From assembly GCF_022369515.1 (NCBI RefSeq), contig NZ_CP059724.1, positions 372,001-436,000 on the forward strand: a DNA stretch of 64,000 nt, given 5' to 3'. A model generated the notes under the pieces. It saw nothing but the letters and a program-made list of their open reading frames with translations, was not told the origin of the DNA and did no database searches. A program made the position numbers and the translations under genes. Source of the stretch: Paenibacillus sp. 19GGS1-52 (GTDB lineage: Bacteria; Bacillota; Bacilli; Paenibacillales; Paenibacillaceae). This document shows positions 51,476-59,177 of the stretch, piece after piece (within the stretch, counting starts at the first letter, position 1; each line of letters opens with the position of its first letter).

Positions 51476-52035
51476 TCAGGAAATCCAAGTCATCGAACAA
51501 CGCTGCCTCAAAGTGTATGATAGACTGGACGTAGTGCATCAGAAAACCCTGAAATCCCAAATTAGAACTAGAGCCAGTCGCTCTGCACGAGCTTATGGAG
51601 AGTGTGCTGGGCGAGATGCGCTTGGAGCTCAAGCCTATTAAAGTAAATTACACTCGACATCTGCGTCATCTAGTAATTATGGCTGACCCCTACTATTTCT
51701 CACAGGCTGTTGAGAATATTCTGTCCAATGCGGTGGACGCCCTGCAGCATGTTCCAGAGAAATCGCGACTGAACGAGATTGAGACCAATATGAAGAACAA
51801 GTGGGTGGAGTTGATTATTCGCGACAACGGCATCGGCATAGCGGATGAGGATATAGGGAACATTTTTCAGCCGTTCTTCTCTTCCAAGCCTACGGCCACG
51901 AATTGGGGAATGGGGTTGTCCTTATGCCATACCATCATAACAACACACGGGGGTAAGATCAGTGCTGCCAGCAGACGAGGCGAAGGTAGCTCGTTTCATA
52001 TTGTCATGCCTCTGCTTTCGACTTCAAATAACTAG
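51468..52035 (+). pseudogene. Histidine kinase fragment (HATPase domain) with a frameshift
   Basis: From 51468 the first frame reads VVQEIQVIEQRCLKVYDRLDVVHQKTLK, like the helix after the phospho-acceptor region. From 51554 a second frame reads LELEPVALHELMESVLGEMRLELKP and then a full HATPase domain: N-box QAVENILSNAVDAL, G1 DNGIGIADED, FQPFFSSK and G2 GMGLSLCHTIITTHGG. The H-box, sensor and membrane part are absent. A protein from ATG 51595 would bind ATP but not autophosphorylate. The response regulator after it is intact. Confidence 0.75.
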
Positions 52036-52050
52036 GGGGCGAACATCAGC

Positions 52051-52776
52051 ATGAGCATTCCAGCCATTAAGGTGCTTATCGTAGAAGACGATAACTTGAT
52101 CGCCAAGCGCTATCAGATGATTCTAACCAAAGACCCGCAGATAGAGTTTGTCGGGAGGGCCGCGAGCGGCTATGAGGGGACAATGTTGGCAGCGCTTTAT
52201 AAACCAGACATTATCCTAATGGACATTGAACTGGAGGACAAGCAAGCTGGACTACGGGCTTCATCGGAAATATTGAACTATATGCCGAACGTCAAGATTG
52301 TCATGCTCACCGTCTGTGAAACCGACGATACGGTTTTCCAAGCATTTGAATTGGGTGTAACCAACTACTTGCTCAAGAACATGCCAGCCGAGGCCATATT
52401 GAAAGCTGTAAAAGATGCCTATTATGACATGTCTTCGCTGCATTCCAACATCGCCGGGAAGATCACCCGGGAGTTTAAGCGGATCAAGACGGCGGAGGAC
52501 AGCCTCATTTATAATTTTCATATCCTGACGAAGCTTACACCTACAGAACTCGAGGTTCTAGATTTACTGATGAAGGACTACAGCCGTCAAGAAATTTGCA
52601 AAGAGCGCCATGTGGAGCCTTCTACGCTAAAATCCCAGATCAACAGTATCCTGAAGAAATTCAATAAAAACAGTGTGCAAGAGGTGATTCCTATTCTGCG
52701 TGAATTGCATATTCCACAAATTCTTTCACAGCGTAAGGGGAGCCTGCCATTGGGAGCGAATGGAGAGCAACTATGA
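52051..52776 (+). CDS. Response regulator, NarL/LuxR type
   Basis: 241 residues. The receiver domain (about 7-125) has VLIVEDD, phospho-acceptor Asp in IILMDIELED and the late Lys in NYLLKNMP. The LuxR-type HTH (about 165-220) is LTPTELEVLDLLMKDYSRQEICKERHVEPSTLKSQINSILKKF. Its kinase partner gene, 15 bases upstream, is truncated, so it may be unphosphorylated or served by another kinase. GGGGGCG precedes the ATG. It overlaps the lipoprotein gene by 4 bases (ATGA). Confidence 0.88.
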   Translation: MSIPAIKVLIVEDDNLIAKRYQMILTKDPQIEFVGRAASGYEGTMLAALYKPDIILMDIELEDKQAGLRASSEILNYMPNVKIVMLTVCETDDTVFQAFELGVTNYLLKNMPAEAILKAVKDAYYDMSSLHSNIAGKITREFKRIKTAEDSLIYNFHILTKLTPTELEVLDLLMKDYSRQEICKERHVEPSTLKSQINSILKKFNKNSVQEVIPILRELHIPQILSQRKGSLPLGANGEQL

Positions 52777-53570
52777 AGATGAAATCATGGATTGTTATAT
52801 TTATTTCAATACTAATCATTAGTGGGTGTGCCAATCCCGAAGCCAAAAGATTTAAGAACAATAAAGTTGTGCAAGCCGAAATTAAAGAATTGATTGTCTC
52901 CAAGGGAGCGGAAATGTACGGTCTAGAACTCAAGCCTATCATGGAAGGTATGGAGTTCGGTCGCGGACCTGCGCTCCCCTCCGTGGATAGTACGAAACTG
53001 GTCGTACCAGTAAAAACAACAGGAATTCCTGAATTCACATTTAACGCTATCGTAGATATTGGGGATACAGAAGCTGGGGAAATCGGAATAAAGGGTGTGG
53101 ATATTTATGGAAACCCCAATGGATTAGGTTATCTAGGTAACTTTCTAATGTCTTATGTCTTTAAGACAAAGTTCCACAAGGAAATAGATGGAATATTGAA
53201 TTATGATAAAGGTATCTATTTAGATAGAGTGATGGTTCAGTCCAAGGCATCTATCTATATTGAGGACGAAGAGGAATTAGAGCAAATGATGCGAGCAATA
53301 ACTGCAGACTATACTGCTGGAAAGTTCAATAATCCAGACGAATATACTTATCTAATAGATACGTATGGACTCGGGGGGCTGCCACAAGTATTTATCAAAA
53401 TGGATCAAGCCTCTGATTCGGCAGCAACCGAGGAAAAATTCAATAATCTTGTTGCTTACATGACGAACAATAAGGATCTTCCCGCTGCTGAATATCATAT
53501 TAAGACCTATTCTACCCCAAAAGATGTGTCCACCTTCTCCAAAGTTCTGGTCATTGGTGATCAACAGTAA
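52773..53570 (+). CDS. Putative lipoprotein
   Basis: 265 residues. The signal peptide MKMKSWIVIFISILIISGC has a clear lipobox (IISGC), so the mature protein is lipid-anchored outside the membrane. The rest is alpha/beta with no family I can name with confidence; staphylococcal DUF1672-type lipoproteins have a broadly similar layout. Its start overlaps the response regulator stop by 4 bases, linking it to that two-component system as a target or accessory. Its 3' end overlaps by 10 bases the convergent methyltransferase. Confidence 0.8.
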   Translation: MKMKSWIVIFISILIISGCANPEAKRFKNNKVVQAEIKELIVSKGAEMYGLELKPIMEGMEFGRGPALPSVDSTKLVVPVKTTGIPEFTFNAIVDIGDTEAGEIGIKGVDIYGNPNGLGYLGNFLMSYVFKTKFHKEIDGILNYDKGIYLDRVMVQSKASIYIEDEEELEQMMRAITADYTAGKFNNPDEYTYLIDTYGLGGLPQVFIKMDQASDSAATEEKFNNLVAYMTNNKDLPAAEYHIKTYSTPKDVSTFSKVLVIGDQQ

Positions 53571-54154
53571 ACCGCTTGCTGCATACGTCTGAACTCAATG
53601 AGCTCAAAGTCCTTAAAGATGGTTTTAATTTTGTCCTCAGTGTAACCTAATCCACCCTTAAGGCTACGTTGCCGATATACCTCCCAATCGGTCATATCTG
53701 CACCCATGCTGCCTAATGCAAAGCATACTAGCCCGAAGGATCCTCCCGGTTTCAAACTTTTGTTCACCATATCAAGAAAGCTAACTCTACGATGGGGGAG
53801 GATATGATGGAAACATCCGCTGTCATAAATAAAATCATAGGTTTCGGACTCCAGGTTAAGATCGAAAATATTATGGCGAAGAAAATTGACATGCACATGG
53901 TTAGTCTTAGCTCGTTCTATTCCCCAATTTATTGTTTCCTGAGAAATATCAACTGCAGTAACCTTGCAATTCTGTTGAGCCATATAGACAGCATTTCTAC
54001 CCGCTCCACAACCTAATTCGAGAACCTTTCCTGCTTGTATGTGTCCGTCATGAAAGTATTGGACTAAGTTTTCATCTGGCGCATTCACAAAAAAAGGCAC
54101 GCCTTTATTTCTGTCAGCATAGAAGTTATCCCACCATCCTATAATCGATATTGT
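53561..54154 (-). CDS. Class I SAM-dependent methyltransferase without a normal start codon
   Basis: The frame continues directly after the TAA of the ArsR-GyrB-like gene (54157-54155) for 197 codons. It reads IGWWDNFYADRNKGVPFFVNAP, then SAM motif I VLELGCGAGRNAVYMAQ, motif II VTAVDISQETI and the later IYDSGCFHHI, all typical of Methyltransf_25 enzymes. Only GTG at 54100 exists as a start in the frame and it would remove conserved N-terminal residues; no ribosome site precedes it. Use of ATT/ATA, translational readthrough of the upstream TAA, or decay are possible. Substrate unknown. Confidence 0.7.
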   Translation of the reverse strand, partial: TISIIGWWDNFYADRNKGVPFFVNAPDENLVQYFHDGHIQAGKVLELGCGAGRNAVYMAQQNCKVTAVDISQETINWGIERAKTNHVHVNFLRHNIFDLNLESETYDFIYDSGCFHHILPHRRVSFLDMVNKSLKPGGSFGLVCFALGSMGADMTDWEVYRQRSLKGGLGYTEDKIKTIFKDFELIEFRRMQQAVYC

Positions 54155-55234
54155 TTAGTCATGAATATGGATGGAGAGACTTGGATAAGCCGTTAACAGT
54201 TCATTTTTACGTAGATCCAGTTTAGTACGGTCAAAACCTACTCCAAACAAATCTGCATCCGGCTTGAAAGTAACACTTGTTCCAGTCTCAATCGATATGC
54301 CAACGGTCATTAATCCAGATTGCGGGATACCCTGTCTGTACTCTTGACGATAAACTTTCCCATCACGACGAATCTCAACAGTCAGCTTTTGGGAAAGGGC
54401 ATTAACTACTGCAATGCTAATCCCTTTCTCGGCCCCTGGAACTTGGAATTGAGCACTGCTGCTAAACCGATTGATATCGGTCAAAATGGATTGAACAAGT
54501 GCCTCAACAGGAATGCCTCTGCCATTATCAGTTACGGTCACACTCCCATCATCGTGCAGGAACAGGTCAATCTCACTACAAAACCCCGCTTGGTGCTCAA
54601 GTATTGAATTCTCAACAACCGCCCAAAGCAAGTGGTGGACATCGAAATCTTGTGATGTTCCGAAATAAACCCCCGCGTTATTCCTTGTTTCCATCATGTC
54701 CATATAATCACTTGTATCTAGTAAGTCACTGACCGCAGCTAATAGCAGAAGAAAAGGGAGGCATCGATGCATGGGGAATCCATATCGTCCTCCAGGTTCT
54801 TGCACTAATAAATTGGCTCCGATCAATGCCTTGAGATGGTGATAAAGCTGACCCGTTGTACCCATGTTTAAGCGGTCAACAAGCTCGGCCCCTGTAAGAG
54901 GTTCATTAAGAACAGTCCTTAAAATGTCTAAACGTTGCTTATTTCCTAGTGCAGCTAGAACTTTTGCCACTTTCTCACTATTCAATCCAAGCAATTCTTG
55001 CATGCGACGTTCTTGGGGTGCCCATCTTAGCCCTTGTCCGTTTAGCTGAACGTTACCGGAATAGAAAACAGAACTTGAGTCAGGGTCCTTCATAACGGAG
55101 TCTTCGTAAATAGGATCTGCAAGGTTCAGATTTGCTGCGGGTTTTCGTTCCAAAACAATATGCTGGACTAGTTGATGAAGCTCGGCCATTTGTTTCTTTA
55201 GTTCGTCAATCTCATTACTTAAATCACGGCTCAT
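54155..55234 (-). CDS. ArsR-type HTH fused to a GyrB-like GHKL ATPase domain
   Basis: 359 residues from ATG 55234. Coiled coil (about 5-30), then an ArsR winged HTH (about 88-150: AALGNKQRLDILRTVLNEPLTGAELVDRL and LYHHLKAL). From about 190 the protein matches the N-terminal ATPase of DNA gyrase B: HHLLWAVVENSILEH, DGSVTVTDNGRGIPVEAL, VVNALSQKL, DGKVYRQEYRQG, TGTSVTFKPD. Asn209 and Asp236 (ATP-binding) are kept, but the catalytic Glu (GyrB Glu42) position is Ala205 and the GVG loop is altered to GIS. It may therefore bind ATP without hydrolysis, as an ATP- or drug-sensing repressor. The promoter region has TTACGTAA repeats. Confidence 0.88.
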   Translation of the reverse strand: MSRDLSNEIDELKKQMAELHQLVQHIVLERKPAANLNLADPIYEDSVMKDPDSSSVFYSGNVQLNGQGLRWAPQERRMQELLGLNSEKVAKVLAALGNKQRLDILRTVLNEPLTGAELVDRLNMGTTGQLYHHLKALIGANLLVQEPGGRYGFPMHRCLPFLLLLAAVSDLLDTSDYMDMMETRNNAGVYFGTSQDFDVHHLLWAVVENSILEHQAGFCSEIDLFLHDDGSVTVTDNGRGIPVEALVQSILTDINRFSSSAQFQVPGAEKGISIAVVNALSQKLTVEIRRDGKVYRQEYRQGIPQSGLMTVGISIETGTSVTFKPDADLFGVGFDRTKLDLRKNELLTAYPSLSIHIHD

Positions 55235-55257: not shown

Positions 55258-55301
55258 CATTACGCATTATTTCATTACGTAATTATTATATTTCGTAATT
55301 A
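55258..55301. promoter_or_regulatory. Repeated ATTACGTAAT sites before the ArsR-GyrB-like gene
   Basis: Three related boxes, ATTACGCATT, ATTACGTAAT (perfect palindrome, 55274-55283) and TTTCGTAATT, in a short AT-rich run. They fit a winged-HTH repressor site for autoregulation of the fusion gene. Confidence 0.6.
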
Positions 55302-55417
55302 TTTAAAGTCAACAGGTTTAACTTTACATATAATATCAGATTAGCGTAATGTCTATACTAAAGCCCAAAACCTGACATGAATCTTCATTTGTTATAGAGG
55401 CGAAAGGAAAATGTCCC

Positions 55418-56656
55418 TTGATTGAAACGTTACTCTTGAACTTTTTGTTTTTACTGTTTCCAGTTCTAATCGTGCTAATTTTCTTTGAAAATAGACCCTT
55501 TTCTTATAATAGAAAGATTCTTGTTTTGCTCTCTGTAGTGACAATGATTCTATGTATAGCCAAGCCCATTACATTGGAAATTGGATTTATTTTTGATTTG
55601 AGATATGTCCCGTTTATTATCGTGGCTCTATTTGGCGGCTATAAGAATGTAGTTCCGTTATATTTAATATTAAATATCTACCGTTTCTATTTGGGTGGAG
55701 ATGGAACCATCCACTCCTTTCTTTTTTCAACAGCTGTATTCATTCTGGTACCCCTATATAGTAAAAGGTTCTTAAAGCTAAATTCTAAAAACCGAATTAT
55801 AGGGGCAACTGTTATTTCTTTTCTTACGATGGGAGTCTACCTAATTATTCTAAGTAGGATTATGGGTTCCTTAGATAGACAATTCTGGCTGCTCACGTTT
55901 GATGCCTTAACGACTTATGTTGGGGTGACAAGTATCATTATGATTTTATTAGAGCAGATCATTACCAACGTCAAGAATCGTGACCGAATTTTACAATCGG
56001 AAAGATTAAATGTCGTCAGTGAGCTAGCAGCTAGTGTGTCACACGAAATAAGAAATCCACTAACCGTCACCAGCGGTTTTCTGCAGCTTTTATCTAAATC
56101 AAAGAATATAACGTCCGAAGAAAAAGGATATGTAGAATTATCTTTGCAGGAACTTAATCGAGCAGAAAAAATAGTCAGCGATTATCTTTTGTTTGCTAAG
56201 CCGCAAGCCGAGAATAGGGTGTATTCCGATATGAGAGTAGAGTCAGAGTATACCAAAAATATCATCATGCCCTATGCCGCCATACATAAAGTAGAAGTTA
56301 TATTTAGTTTCAATAACTCGTTAAATAAGAACTATGATCGAAACCAACTCCAGCAATGTTTAATTAATTTATATAAAAATGGGATTGAAGCGATGAAAGA
56401 AAAGGATGGCGGTACTCTATTCATTGATATATCAGAAAGTAAGCAGAATATTATTATTAGCATTCGAGACACTGGAATTGGGATGACAAAGGAAGAAATA
56501 TCACGTCTAGGCAAGCCATACTATTCTACCAAAGAAGATGGAACCGGTCTTGGCATGCTCATGGCCTACAGTACAATTCATAAAGTAAAAGGGAACATTG
56601 AAGTCACTAGTGAAAAAGGCAAAGGTACCACCGTCCTTATCACAATCCCTACTTAA
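55418..56656 (+). CDS. Sensor histidine kinase, KinB-like
   Basis: 412 residues from TTG 55418. Six hydrophobic helices (about 4-24, 33-55, 62-85, 95-115, 127-148, 155-175) form a 5TMR_LYT-type membrane sensor. HisKA carries the phospho-acceptor His in SVSHEIRNPLT (about residue 208). The HATPase has N-box QCLINLYKNGIEAM, G1 DTGIGM and G2 GTGLGMLMAYSTI. The architecture matches KinB-type sporulation kinases that feed the phosphorelay. No cognate response regulator is adjacent, consistent with a phosphorelay kinase. AAAGG lies about 10 bases before the TTG. Confidence 0.9.
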   Translation: MIETLLLNFLFLLFPVLIVLIFFENRPFSYNRKILVLLSVVTMILCIAKPITLEIGFIFDLRYVPFIIVALFGGYKNVVPLYLILNIYRFYLGGDGTIHSFLFSTAVFILVPLYSKRFLKLNSKNRIIGATVISFLTMGVYLIILSRIMGSLDRQFWLLTFDALTTYVGVTSIIMILLEQIITNVKNRDRILQSERLNVVSELAASVSHEIRNPLTVTSGFLQLLSKSKNITSEEKGYVELSLQELNRAEKIVSDYLLFAKPQAENRVYSDMRVESEYTKNIIMPYAAIHKVEVIFSFNNSLNKNYDRNQLQQCLINLYKNGIEAMKEKDGGTLFIDISESKQNIIISIRDTGIGMTKEEISRLGKPYYSTKEDGTGLGMLMAYSTIHKVKGNIEVTSEKGKGTTVLITIPT

Positions 56657-57968: not shown

Positions 57969-59177
57969 ATGATTGAGCTGGTCTTGACGATCAATGATAA
58001 AGACGGGAGCTATACGGAGCACGCTGGTGTTGTCCTTGCATCAATCTTTTCCAATACCCAGCAAATGATCAATGTGCACATTGTGCATGACGATTCCTTA
58101 AGTGAGGAGAACAAGTCAAAGCTCACTCAGCTGGTGGATGTATTTCATCACAATATCTTTTTTTATCATGTTACAGTTCCTGGGGATATGCAAGAAGTTG
58201 CAGCTGGCGTGTATAAAATTGACTATTGGACAATGGCTAGCATGTACCGGCTGTTGCTCCCAATATTTATTCAAGCGGAGAGAGTTATTTATCTGGACTG
58301 CGACATCTTGGTCAATATGGATATTAACGAATTGTGGAACATCGACCTGGGAGATCGTTATTTGGGTGCAGTATTGGATCAAGGCCAAAATTTGCTGGAG
58401 TACTTTATCTCACTTGGGCTAAGTGCGGAGTTGTATTTTAACTCAGGGGTTATTCTGTTTCAACTGGACAATATCCGTAAGAAAGAGAACTGGTACGGAG
58501 AAATGCTCAATTTCTTGCGTAATTATCCAATAATGACTATGCCGGATCAGGATGTTCTGAATGCTGTTTTTAGCTCCAACTATTTGCAAATGGATCAGCG
58601 ATTTAATACGTTCGCTCATCACGAACTCGATTTAGAGAATAAAATTATTCATTTCGCCGGAGATAGCAAATGGTGGGATGTAGATTCACCCCATGTACCG
58701 CTGTACAATAATTATCTGGCCATGACCCCATGGACTAAAGGACTTGCAGCACCAGAGCCAGTGTCTGAACCGGAGCAAACCCTCAGTCTGCCTGAGCCGC
58801 CTGCTCCAGAAATTCAGCCTCCAGAAATACAGCTTCCGGAAACTCCGGTTCTTGAAATCCCAGCCCCTGAAGTGGCAGCCCCAGTCCCAGTACCAGCCCC
58901 AGAGAACGTTCCCGTAAAGCCGCACAGACGGAGACGTCGTAGATCATTGCGACTACGGTTGCGGTTAATAAGACTTAGATTGAGAAGAAAAAGAATGATC
59001 CGCGCCAAATACCGTTCTATCAAGCGCGTGAAACTGATCAAGCGTCGACAGATGAAGAAGAAAAGAGTACTGCGTTCCACAAAGAAGAAACTGCATCCAG
59101 TCCGAAGAAAGCACAAACATATGATGAAAAAGGGACTCTCTAAAAGAGGCACATCCCATTTGAAGCGTACCTCATAA
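57969..59177 (+). CDS. GT8 glycosyltransferase with Pro/Glu linker and polycationic tail
   Basis: 402 residues. Residues about 1-255 form a GT8 (LgtC-like) domain: LVLTINDKDGSYTEHAGVVLASIF, the DxD motif in IYLDCDILVNMD, YFNSGVILF, PDQDVLNAVF and IIHFAGDSKWW. A linker (about 262-318) is Pro/Glu/Ala-rich. The last 84 residues are Arg/Lys-rich (HRRRRRRSLRLRLRLIRLRL and many more), almost without acidic residues. No signal peptide. The tail should bind a polyanion: teichoic acid, DNA or phosphorylated spore-coat protein. The nucleotidyltransferase upstream likely supplies its donor sugar. Confidence 0.87.
   Translation: MIELVLTINDKDGSYTEHAGVVLASIFSNTQQMINVHIVHDDSLSEENKSKLTQLVDVFHHNIFFYHVTVPGDMQEVAAGVYKIDYWTMASMYRLLLPIFIQAERVIYLDCDILVNMDINELWNIDLGDRYLGAVLDQGQNLLEYFISLGLSAELYFNSGVILFQLDNIRKKENWYGEMLNFLRNYPIMTMPDQDVLNAVFSSNYLQMDQRFNTFAHHELDLENKIIHFAGDSKWWDVDSPHVPLYNNYLAMTPWTKGLAAPEPVSEPEQTLSLPEPPAPEIQPPEIQLPETPVLEIPAPEVAAPVPVPAPENVPVKPHRRRRRRSLRLRLRLIRLRLRRKRMIRAKYRSIKRVKLIKRRQMKKKRVLRSTKKKLHPVRRKHKHMMKKGLSKRGTSHLKRTS

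Follow-up and report, generated by a model that had tools for sequence, protein, structure and literature searches.

A gyrase-type ATPase pocket fused to an ArsR-like winged helix: a predicted one-component repressor family of Paenibacillales

The window, by which we mean the whole stretch of 64,000 nucleotides of Paenibacillus sp. 19GGS1-52 that was analysed, contains a gene whose product joins a winged helix-turn-helix (wHTH) to an ATPase domain of the GyrB type. The gene, the parts of its product discussed below, its promoter and its downstream neighbour are the following:

54155..55234, minus strand: coding sequence of the fusion regulator, 359 aa (ATG at 55234, stop at 54155)
54785..54976, minus strand: ArsR-like wHTH, with a recognition segment, MGTTGQLYHHLKAL, that is invariant or nearly so across the family
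54158..54691, minus strand: GyrB 24-kDa-type GHKL domain, with Ala205 at the Glu42 position and Asn209, Asp236, Arg239, Arg290 and Thr319 kept
53561..54154, minus strand: degraded copy of a SAM-dependent methyltransferase gene, directly downstream of the fusion gene
55307..55312, minus strand: -35 hexamer TTGACT
55285..55290, minus strand: -10 hexamer TATAAT, after a 16-bp spacer
55274..55299, minus strand: predicted operator, made up of ATTACGAAAT (55299-55290) and the perfect palindrome ATTACGTAAT (55283-55274), at a spacing of 16 bp; the pair lies on both sides of the -10 hexamer and overlaps it
55259..55267, minus strand: third, partial operator copy ATGCGTAAT, found by inspection

Orthologues start at the position corresponding to 55234; an alternative in-frame ATG lies at 55267. 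The protein consists of a coiled N-terminus (residues ~1-28), a variable linker with a conserved FYSG...RWxPQER stretch, the wHTH (~86-150), a hydrophobic helix (155-185) and the GyrB24-type domain (182-359). Residues 182-359 match GyrB/ParE ATPase models far above chance (NCBIfam PRK05644, E 1e-38; TIGR01059, 4.5e-36; PDB GyrB24, 6e-30; Pfam HATPase_c, 8.7e-10), and the hallmarks of the GHKL ATPase fold, namely the N-box and the DxGxG and GT motifs, are present. In an AlphaFold2 model based on a shallow alignment of window and related-locus sequences only, most of the ATPase part has a pLDDT of about 87-96 and the lid (251-271) is disordered; the wHTH part is of low confidence because the alignment is shallow. 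The top matches of a Foldseek search were all GyrB 24-kDa structures (best E 5e-18). Thus, profile matches, AlphaFold2 and Foldseek bear out the ArsR-GyrB fusion that the initial annotation had read in this ORF, and the ATPase half has the GyrB fold predicted there, not a different one. The 24-kDa domain is the last of the protein, which terminates at residue 359 and lacks the transducer, TOPRIM and C-terminal domains. The true GyrB and ParE of the host (46% and 44% identical to the fusion, respectively) are encoded elsewhere in its genome, and the fusion is therefore a separate protein.

With regard to the surroundings, the start of a divergent histidine kinase gene (55418-56656) lies about 180 bp from the fusion gene, and of the relatives only the nearest (L066) has it in this position. 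The N-terminus of the kinase is multi-spanning and 5TM-LYT-like. A 146-aa ORF (51595-52035) encodes the ATPase part only of a histidine kinase, is probably a truncated kinase gene, and is directly followed by a response regulator gene (52051-52776). Finally, the C-terminal tail of a glycosyltransferase-like ORF (57969-59177), about 80 residues long, is extremely rich in Arg and Lys.

Full-length orthologues of the fusion are present in 95 of the 395 Paenibacillales genomes sampled (24%), distributed over 23 of 50 genera, and one further orthologue was seen outside this order (G236). The first 20 orthologues show identities between 94% and about 53%. In a tree with GyrB/ParE relatives, the GHKL domains of 20 representatives group as one clade, with a support of 100/100 and a stem of 1.3 changes per site. 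Furthermore, the dN/dS ratios of three informative pairs were 0.05-0.07 for the GHKL domain, 0.04-0.05 for the wHTH and 0.13-0.29 for the N-terminal linker. On these comparisons, the fusion is an old, conserved family of single origin. A local mutation or pseudogene is ruled out by the conserved family and the low dN/dS, and a species-specific partial duplication of GyrB by the single old clade with its long stem. Carriage on phages or plasmids was rejected as well, the fusion being absent from the viral contigs, phages and plasmids searched, and so was a function in anti-phage defence, since PADLOC matches only the wHTH, to Csa3.

The wHTH of the window protein scores just below the cut-offs of Pfam HTH_5 and HTH_20 and is matched by NCBIfam HTH_metalloreg at 8e-8. 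Among 20 orthologues, 18-19 match HTH_5/HTH_20 at E<=0.01, some of them under the gathering score, and the closest wHTHs in the PDB include HlyU and NolR. The ArsR wHTH had originally been placed at the N-terminus; a wHTH is indeed present, at residues about 90-150 and not at the extreme N-terminus, and the designation ArsR applies to the wHTH fold alone, without the metal-binding motif. No conserved Cys was found in the wHTH of the 20 orthologues, and the metal sites of ArsR/SmtB (for instance, ELCVCDL) are absent from it, which rules out a metal sensor. Stand-alone ArsR-like proteins of ~170 aa from Kocuria, Deinococcus and Streptomyces align across the whole N-terminal half of the fusion with 24-33% identity, and this suggests that the fusion arose by the joining of a regulator of this type to a GyrB24 domain.

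The region at 55258-55301, which had been pointed out earlier as an autoregulatory site, corresponds to a predicted operator that is conserved in the family. Palindromes of the type ATTACGTAAT are common to the upstream regions of the orthologues. Of 96 members, 84 carry the pattern TTACGTAA <=160 bp upstream of the gene, as compared with a mean of 1.16 and a maximum of 5 in dinucleotide shuffles, and with 7 copies in the remaining 731 kb of these loci. Consecutive TACGTA cores over the -10 region lie 8 bp apart in 50 cases and 16 bp apart in 23, and the sites overlap or come after the -10 hexamer, usually starting 7-17 bp past its start. In the window, the site overlaps the TTGACT-16-TATAAT promoter and therefore indicates repression; from the operator position, we infer that the protein would repress rather than activate. 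In whole-genome pattern searches, strict double sites were confined almost entirely to the fusion promoter in carriers and were absent from most non-carriers, and single ATTACGTAAT sites in the host genome are about as many as the reversed-pattern control gives. Searches for double sites that allowed 0-3 mismatches gave no sign of a larger regulon: apart from the methyltransferase discussed below, no further target recurred consistently. In one genome (G045), a second site falls within a gene for an ABC transporter.

In 17 of 97 loci, the fusion gene is directly followed, on the same strand and mostly at a distance of 5-54 bp, by a class I SAM methyltransferase gene. No neighbour of the fusion gene is more conserved if a DedA-like gene, which is syntenic within one clade, is set aside. 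The methyltransferase resembles TPMT, TehB and thiol methyltransferases, and Rv0560c weakly. The copy in the window lacks a start codon and the N-terminal ~25 residues and is truncated at its C-terminus after RRMQQ, with its core intact in frame, and an internal deletion affects the copy in the sister genome G017. This decay indicates that the pair has lost its methyltransferase partner in the window lineage, in which the regulator is still under constraint. Two carriers, G074 (L104) and G501 (L420), possess an unlinked methyltransferase gene, whose product is 77% and 58% identical, respectively, to the query methyltransferase. The promoters of both genes contain a double operator (ATTACGTAATTACGTATT; TTTACGTAATTACGTAAT), and such a site was found at the methyltransferase gene in none of the 16 genomes that have this gene and lack the fusion. 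Together, these observations provide evidence in trans that the fusion would regulate the methyltransferase where it is present. A recognisable methyltransferase, linked or not, is found in about 19 of the 97 carriers. As most carriers are without one, autoregulation would be the common core, and the main role of the regulator in methyltransferase-less carriers may be something else.

Some loci contain additional genes that may be possible outputs. In G074, the methyltransferase gene (L104, from about 1643) is divergent from an arylamine N-acetyltransferase-like gene, and the double operator sits in the intergenic region shared by the two (L104:1450-1520), so that both could respond. Three loci (L075, L076 and L345) have genes for a short-chain dehydrogenase and a TetR-type regulator downstream of the fusion gene on the same strand, and six other genomes have an alpha/beta hydrolase gene downstream of it.

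The pocket of the GyrB-like domain was analysed in an alignment of E. coli GyrB, 39 other GyrB/ParE proteins and 20 fusions, and residues were then counted over 97 fusions. Glu42, Asn46 and Asp73 of E. coli GyrB correspond to Ala205, Asn209 and Asp236 of the window protein, and the lid loop GLHGVG to AEKGIS; the replaced glutamate, the two retained residues and the changed lid described in the initial annotation are hereby confirmed. The position of Glu42 is occupied by Ala in 87 fusions, by Ser in nine and by Glu in one, meaning that 96 of the 97 homologues share the loss of Glu and that it is not a local mutation. The single exception (L411, genome G509) has an otherwise fusion-type lid and a long low-complexity insert rich in His, Arg and Asp, and no operator was found near its annotated start. 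Lid residue Lys103 is present in all 40 GyrB/ParE relatives and deleted in all 20 fusions examined. In addition, G101 and G102 are lost, G119 is changed, GLHGVG is replaced by AEKGIS or a similar sequence, and D49 is Leu in most fusions; E269 and K270 form a new conserved lid motif. Other pocket residues are conserved: Glu50, Asp73, Arg76 and Gly77 in all 97 fusions, Asn46 in 95, Pro79 and Thr165 in 94 each, and Arg136 in 93. In GyrB, Asp73, Arg76, Arg136 and Thr165 are residues that contact adenine or aminocoumarins. The deletion of Lys103 beside retained drug/adenine contacts was not part of the initial annotation, nor was the methyltransferase as a predicted second target. On this residue pattern, the pocket has retained its base/drug side and lost its triphosphate/hydrolysis side, which argues for a binding module rather than an enzyme. 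We favour a ligand without triphosphate; E269 and K270 could bind phosphates in a different manner, which makes a nucleotide possible. In GyrB24, novobiocin binds in the nucleotide site and overlaps ATP competitively (PMC7956263), and Asp73 is the adenine-region anchor for synthetic inhibitors (PMC9964621).

Based on these data, we consider it fairly probable that the fusion is a one-component repressor of itself, and of the methyltransferase where present, that uses a hydrolysis-dead gyrase pocket as its ligand sensor. At the promoter of the fusion gene, and at that of the methyltransferase gene where there is one, the wHTH would bind the tandem TTACGTAA palindromes located over the -10 region. 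The C-terminal GyrB24 domain, with its adenine/antibiotic side conserved and its triphosphate lid dismantled, would be the sensor. Binding of a ligand in the adenine site would then release the operator, by which regulator and methyltransferase would be switched on. The fusion, its fold, the residue pattern, the operator and the target genes are each supported by sequence evidence, whereas the steps upon ligand binding are what this arrangement leads us to expect. As to the class of ligand, we slightly favour a natural compound resembling gyrase inhibitors over ATP or another adenine nucleotide, and the methyltransferase probably acts on a small molecule, which it may detoxify by methylation. 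In its most specific form, which we advance tentatively, a decoy copy of an antibiotic target would sense gyrase drugs: having kept the drug-binding half of the pocket and dismantled the ATP-hydrolysing half, it would release a drug-methylating enzyme.

A rather doubtful alternative is that the protein is an energy sensor, whose GyrB domain would bind ATP or ADP but not turn it over, so that operator occupancy tracks the adenylate pool. A change of Glu42 in GyrB is expected to spare binding and abolish hydrolysis, the equivalents of Asn46 and Asp73 are retained, and the new E269/K270 pair could contact phosphate. However, Lys103 is deleted, the lid glycines are lost, and neither the N-terminal arm nor the transducer domain with its phosphate-contacting lysine is present. 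Moreover, the patchy spread of the family and a methyltransferase target are unlike housekeeping energy control. It seems improbable that the GyrB domain is a ligand-free scaffold, serving dimerisation or protein contact in a constitutive autorepressor. The loss of catalysis and lid, and the disorder of the latter in the model, would fit such a role, but a scaffold does not need the residues E50, D73, R76, G77, P79, R136 and T165, which are 96-100% conserved, and the dN/dS of the GHKL domain is only a little above the low value of the wHTH. Least probable is activation of the methyltransferase and of the fusion gene itself, because, although HlyU, by name an activator of the ArsR family, is among the closest wHTHs in the PDB, sites that overlap or follow the -10 are typical of repression.

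We found no description of one-component regulators with a gyrase ATPase sensory domain in the literature searched. Since the family, the operator and a second target gene are now defined, a joint test of ligand, DNA site and output is feasible. Should the ligand of the proposed repressor prove to be a gyrase inhibitor, the protein would constitute a natural biosensor of antibiotics that act at the ATP site of gyrase, usable for screening, and would mark a methyltransferase route for inactivating these compounds; if it is ATP, the protein would be a directly ATP-responsive repressor.

Compared with known systems, the fusion has in common with the GyrB 24-kDa subdomain (for example, PDB 6m1s, 1kzn and 7ptf) the Bergerat fold, the HHxxxxVVxNxxxEH, DNGRGIP, VVNAL and GT motifs and the adenine/novobiocin contact residues, and it is about 37% identical to PDB GyrB24, against 46% to the host GyrB. 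It differs in the replacement of Glu42 by Ala or Ser, the deletion of Lys103 and the exchange of GLHGVG for AEKGIS; unlike GyrB, it has no N-terminal arm, transducer, TOPRIM or tail, and has a wHTH fused on. With the ArsR-type wHTH regulators HlyU and NolR, and with the ~170-aa proteins, it shares the recognition segment GTTGQLYHHL(R/K)xL. None of these regulators has a GyrB domain, in contrast to the fusion, and two of the ~170-aa relatives (WP_284563940.1, WP_225523915.1 and WP_239577166.1, from Kocuria, Deinococcus and Streptomyces) precede an M23-peptidase gene or an unknown gene instead. In the latter cases, on Kocuria and Deinococcus plasmids (L422:2492-3834 and L423:2501-3876), the regulator gene has an ATGA-type overlap with the downstream gene, which encodes an M23 metallopeptidase or an unknown membrane protein. 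Finally, in Mycobacterium tuberculosis, the MarR protein Rv2887, which is released by ligand, represses Rv0560c, an enzyme that inactivates a drug by N-methylation (PMC5526998). Rv2887 differs from the fusion in having a MarR fold, small aromatic ligands and no gyrase ATPase pocket, and the similarity of Rv0560c to the methyltransferase is weak. Both systems nevertheless place the site of a wHTH repressor before a SAM methyltransferase gene, and the mycobacterial pair is a functional precedent for the regulation proposed here.
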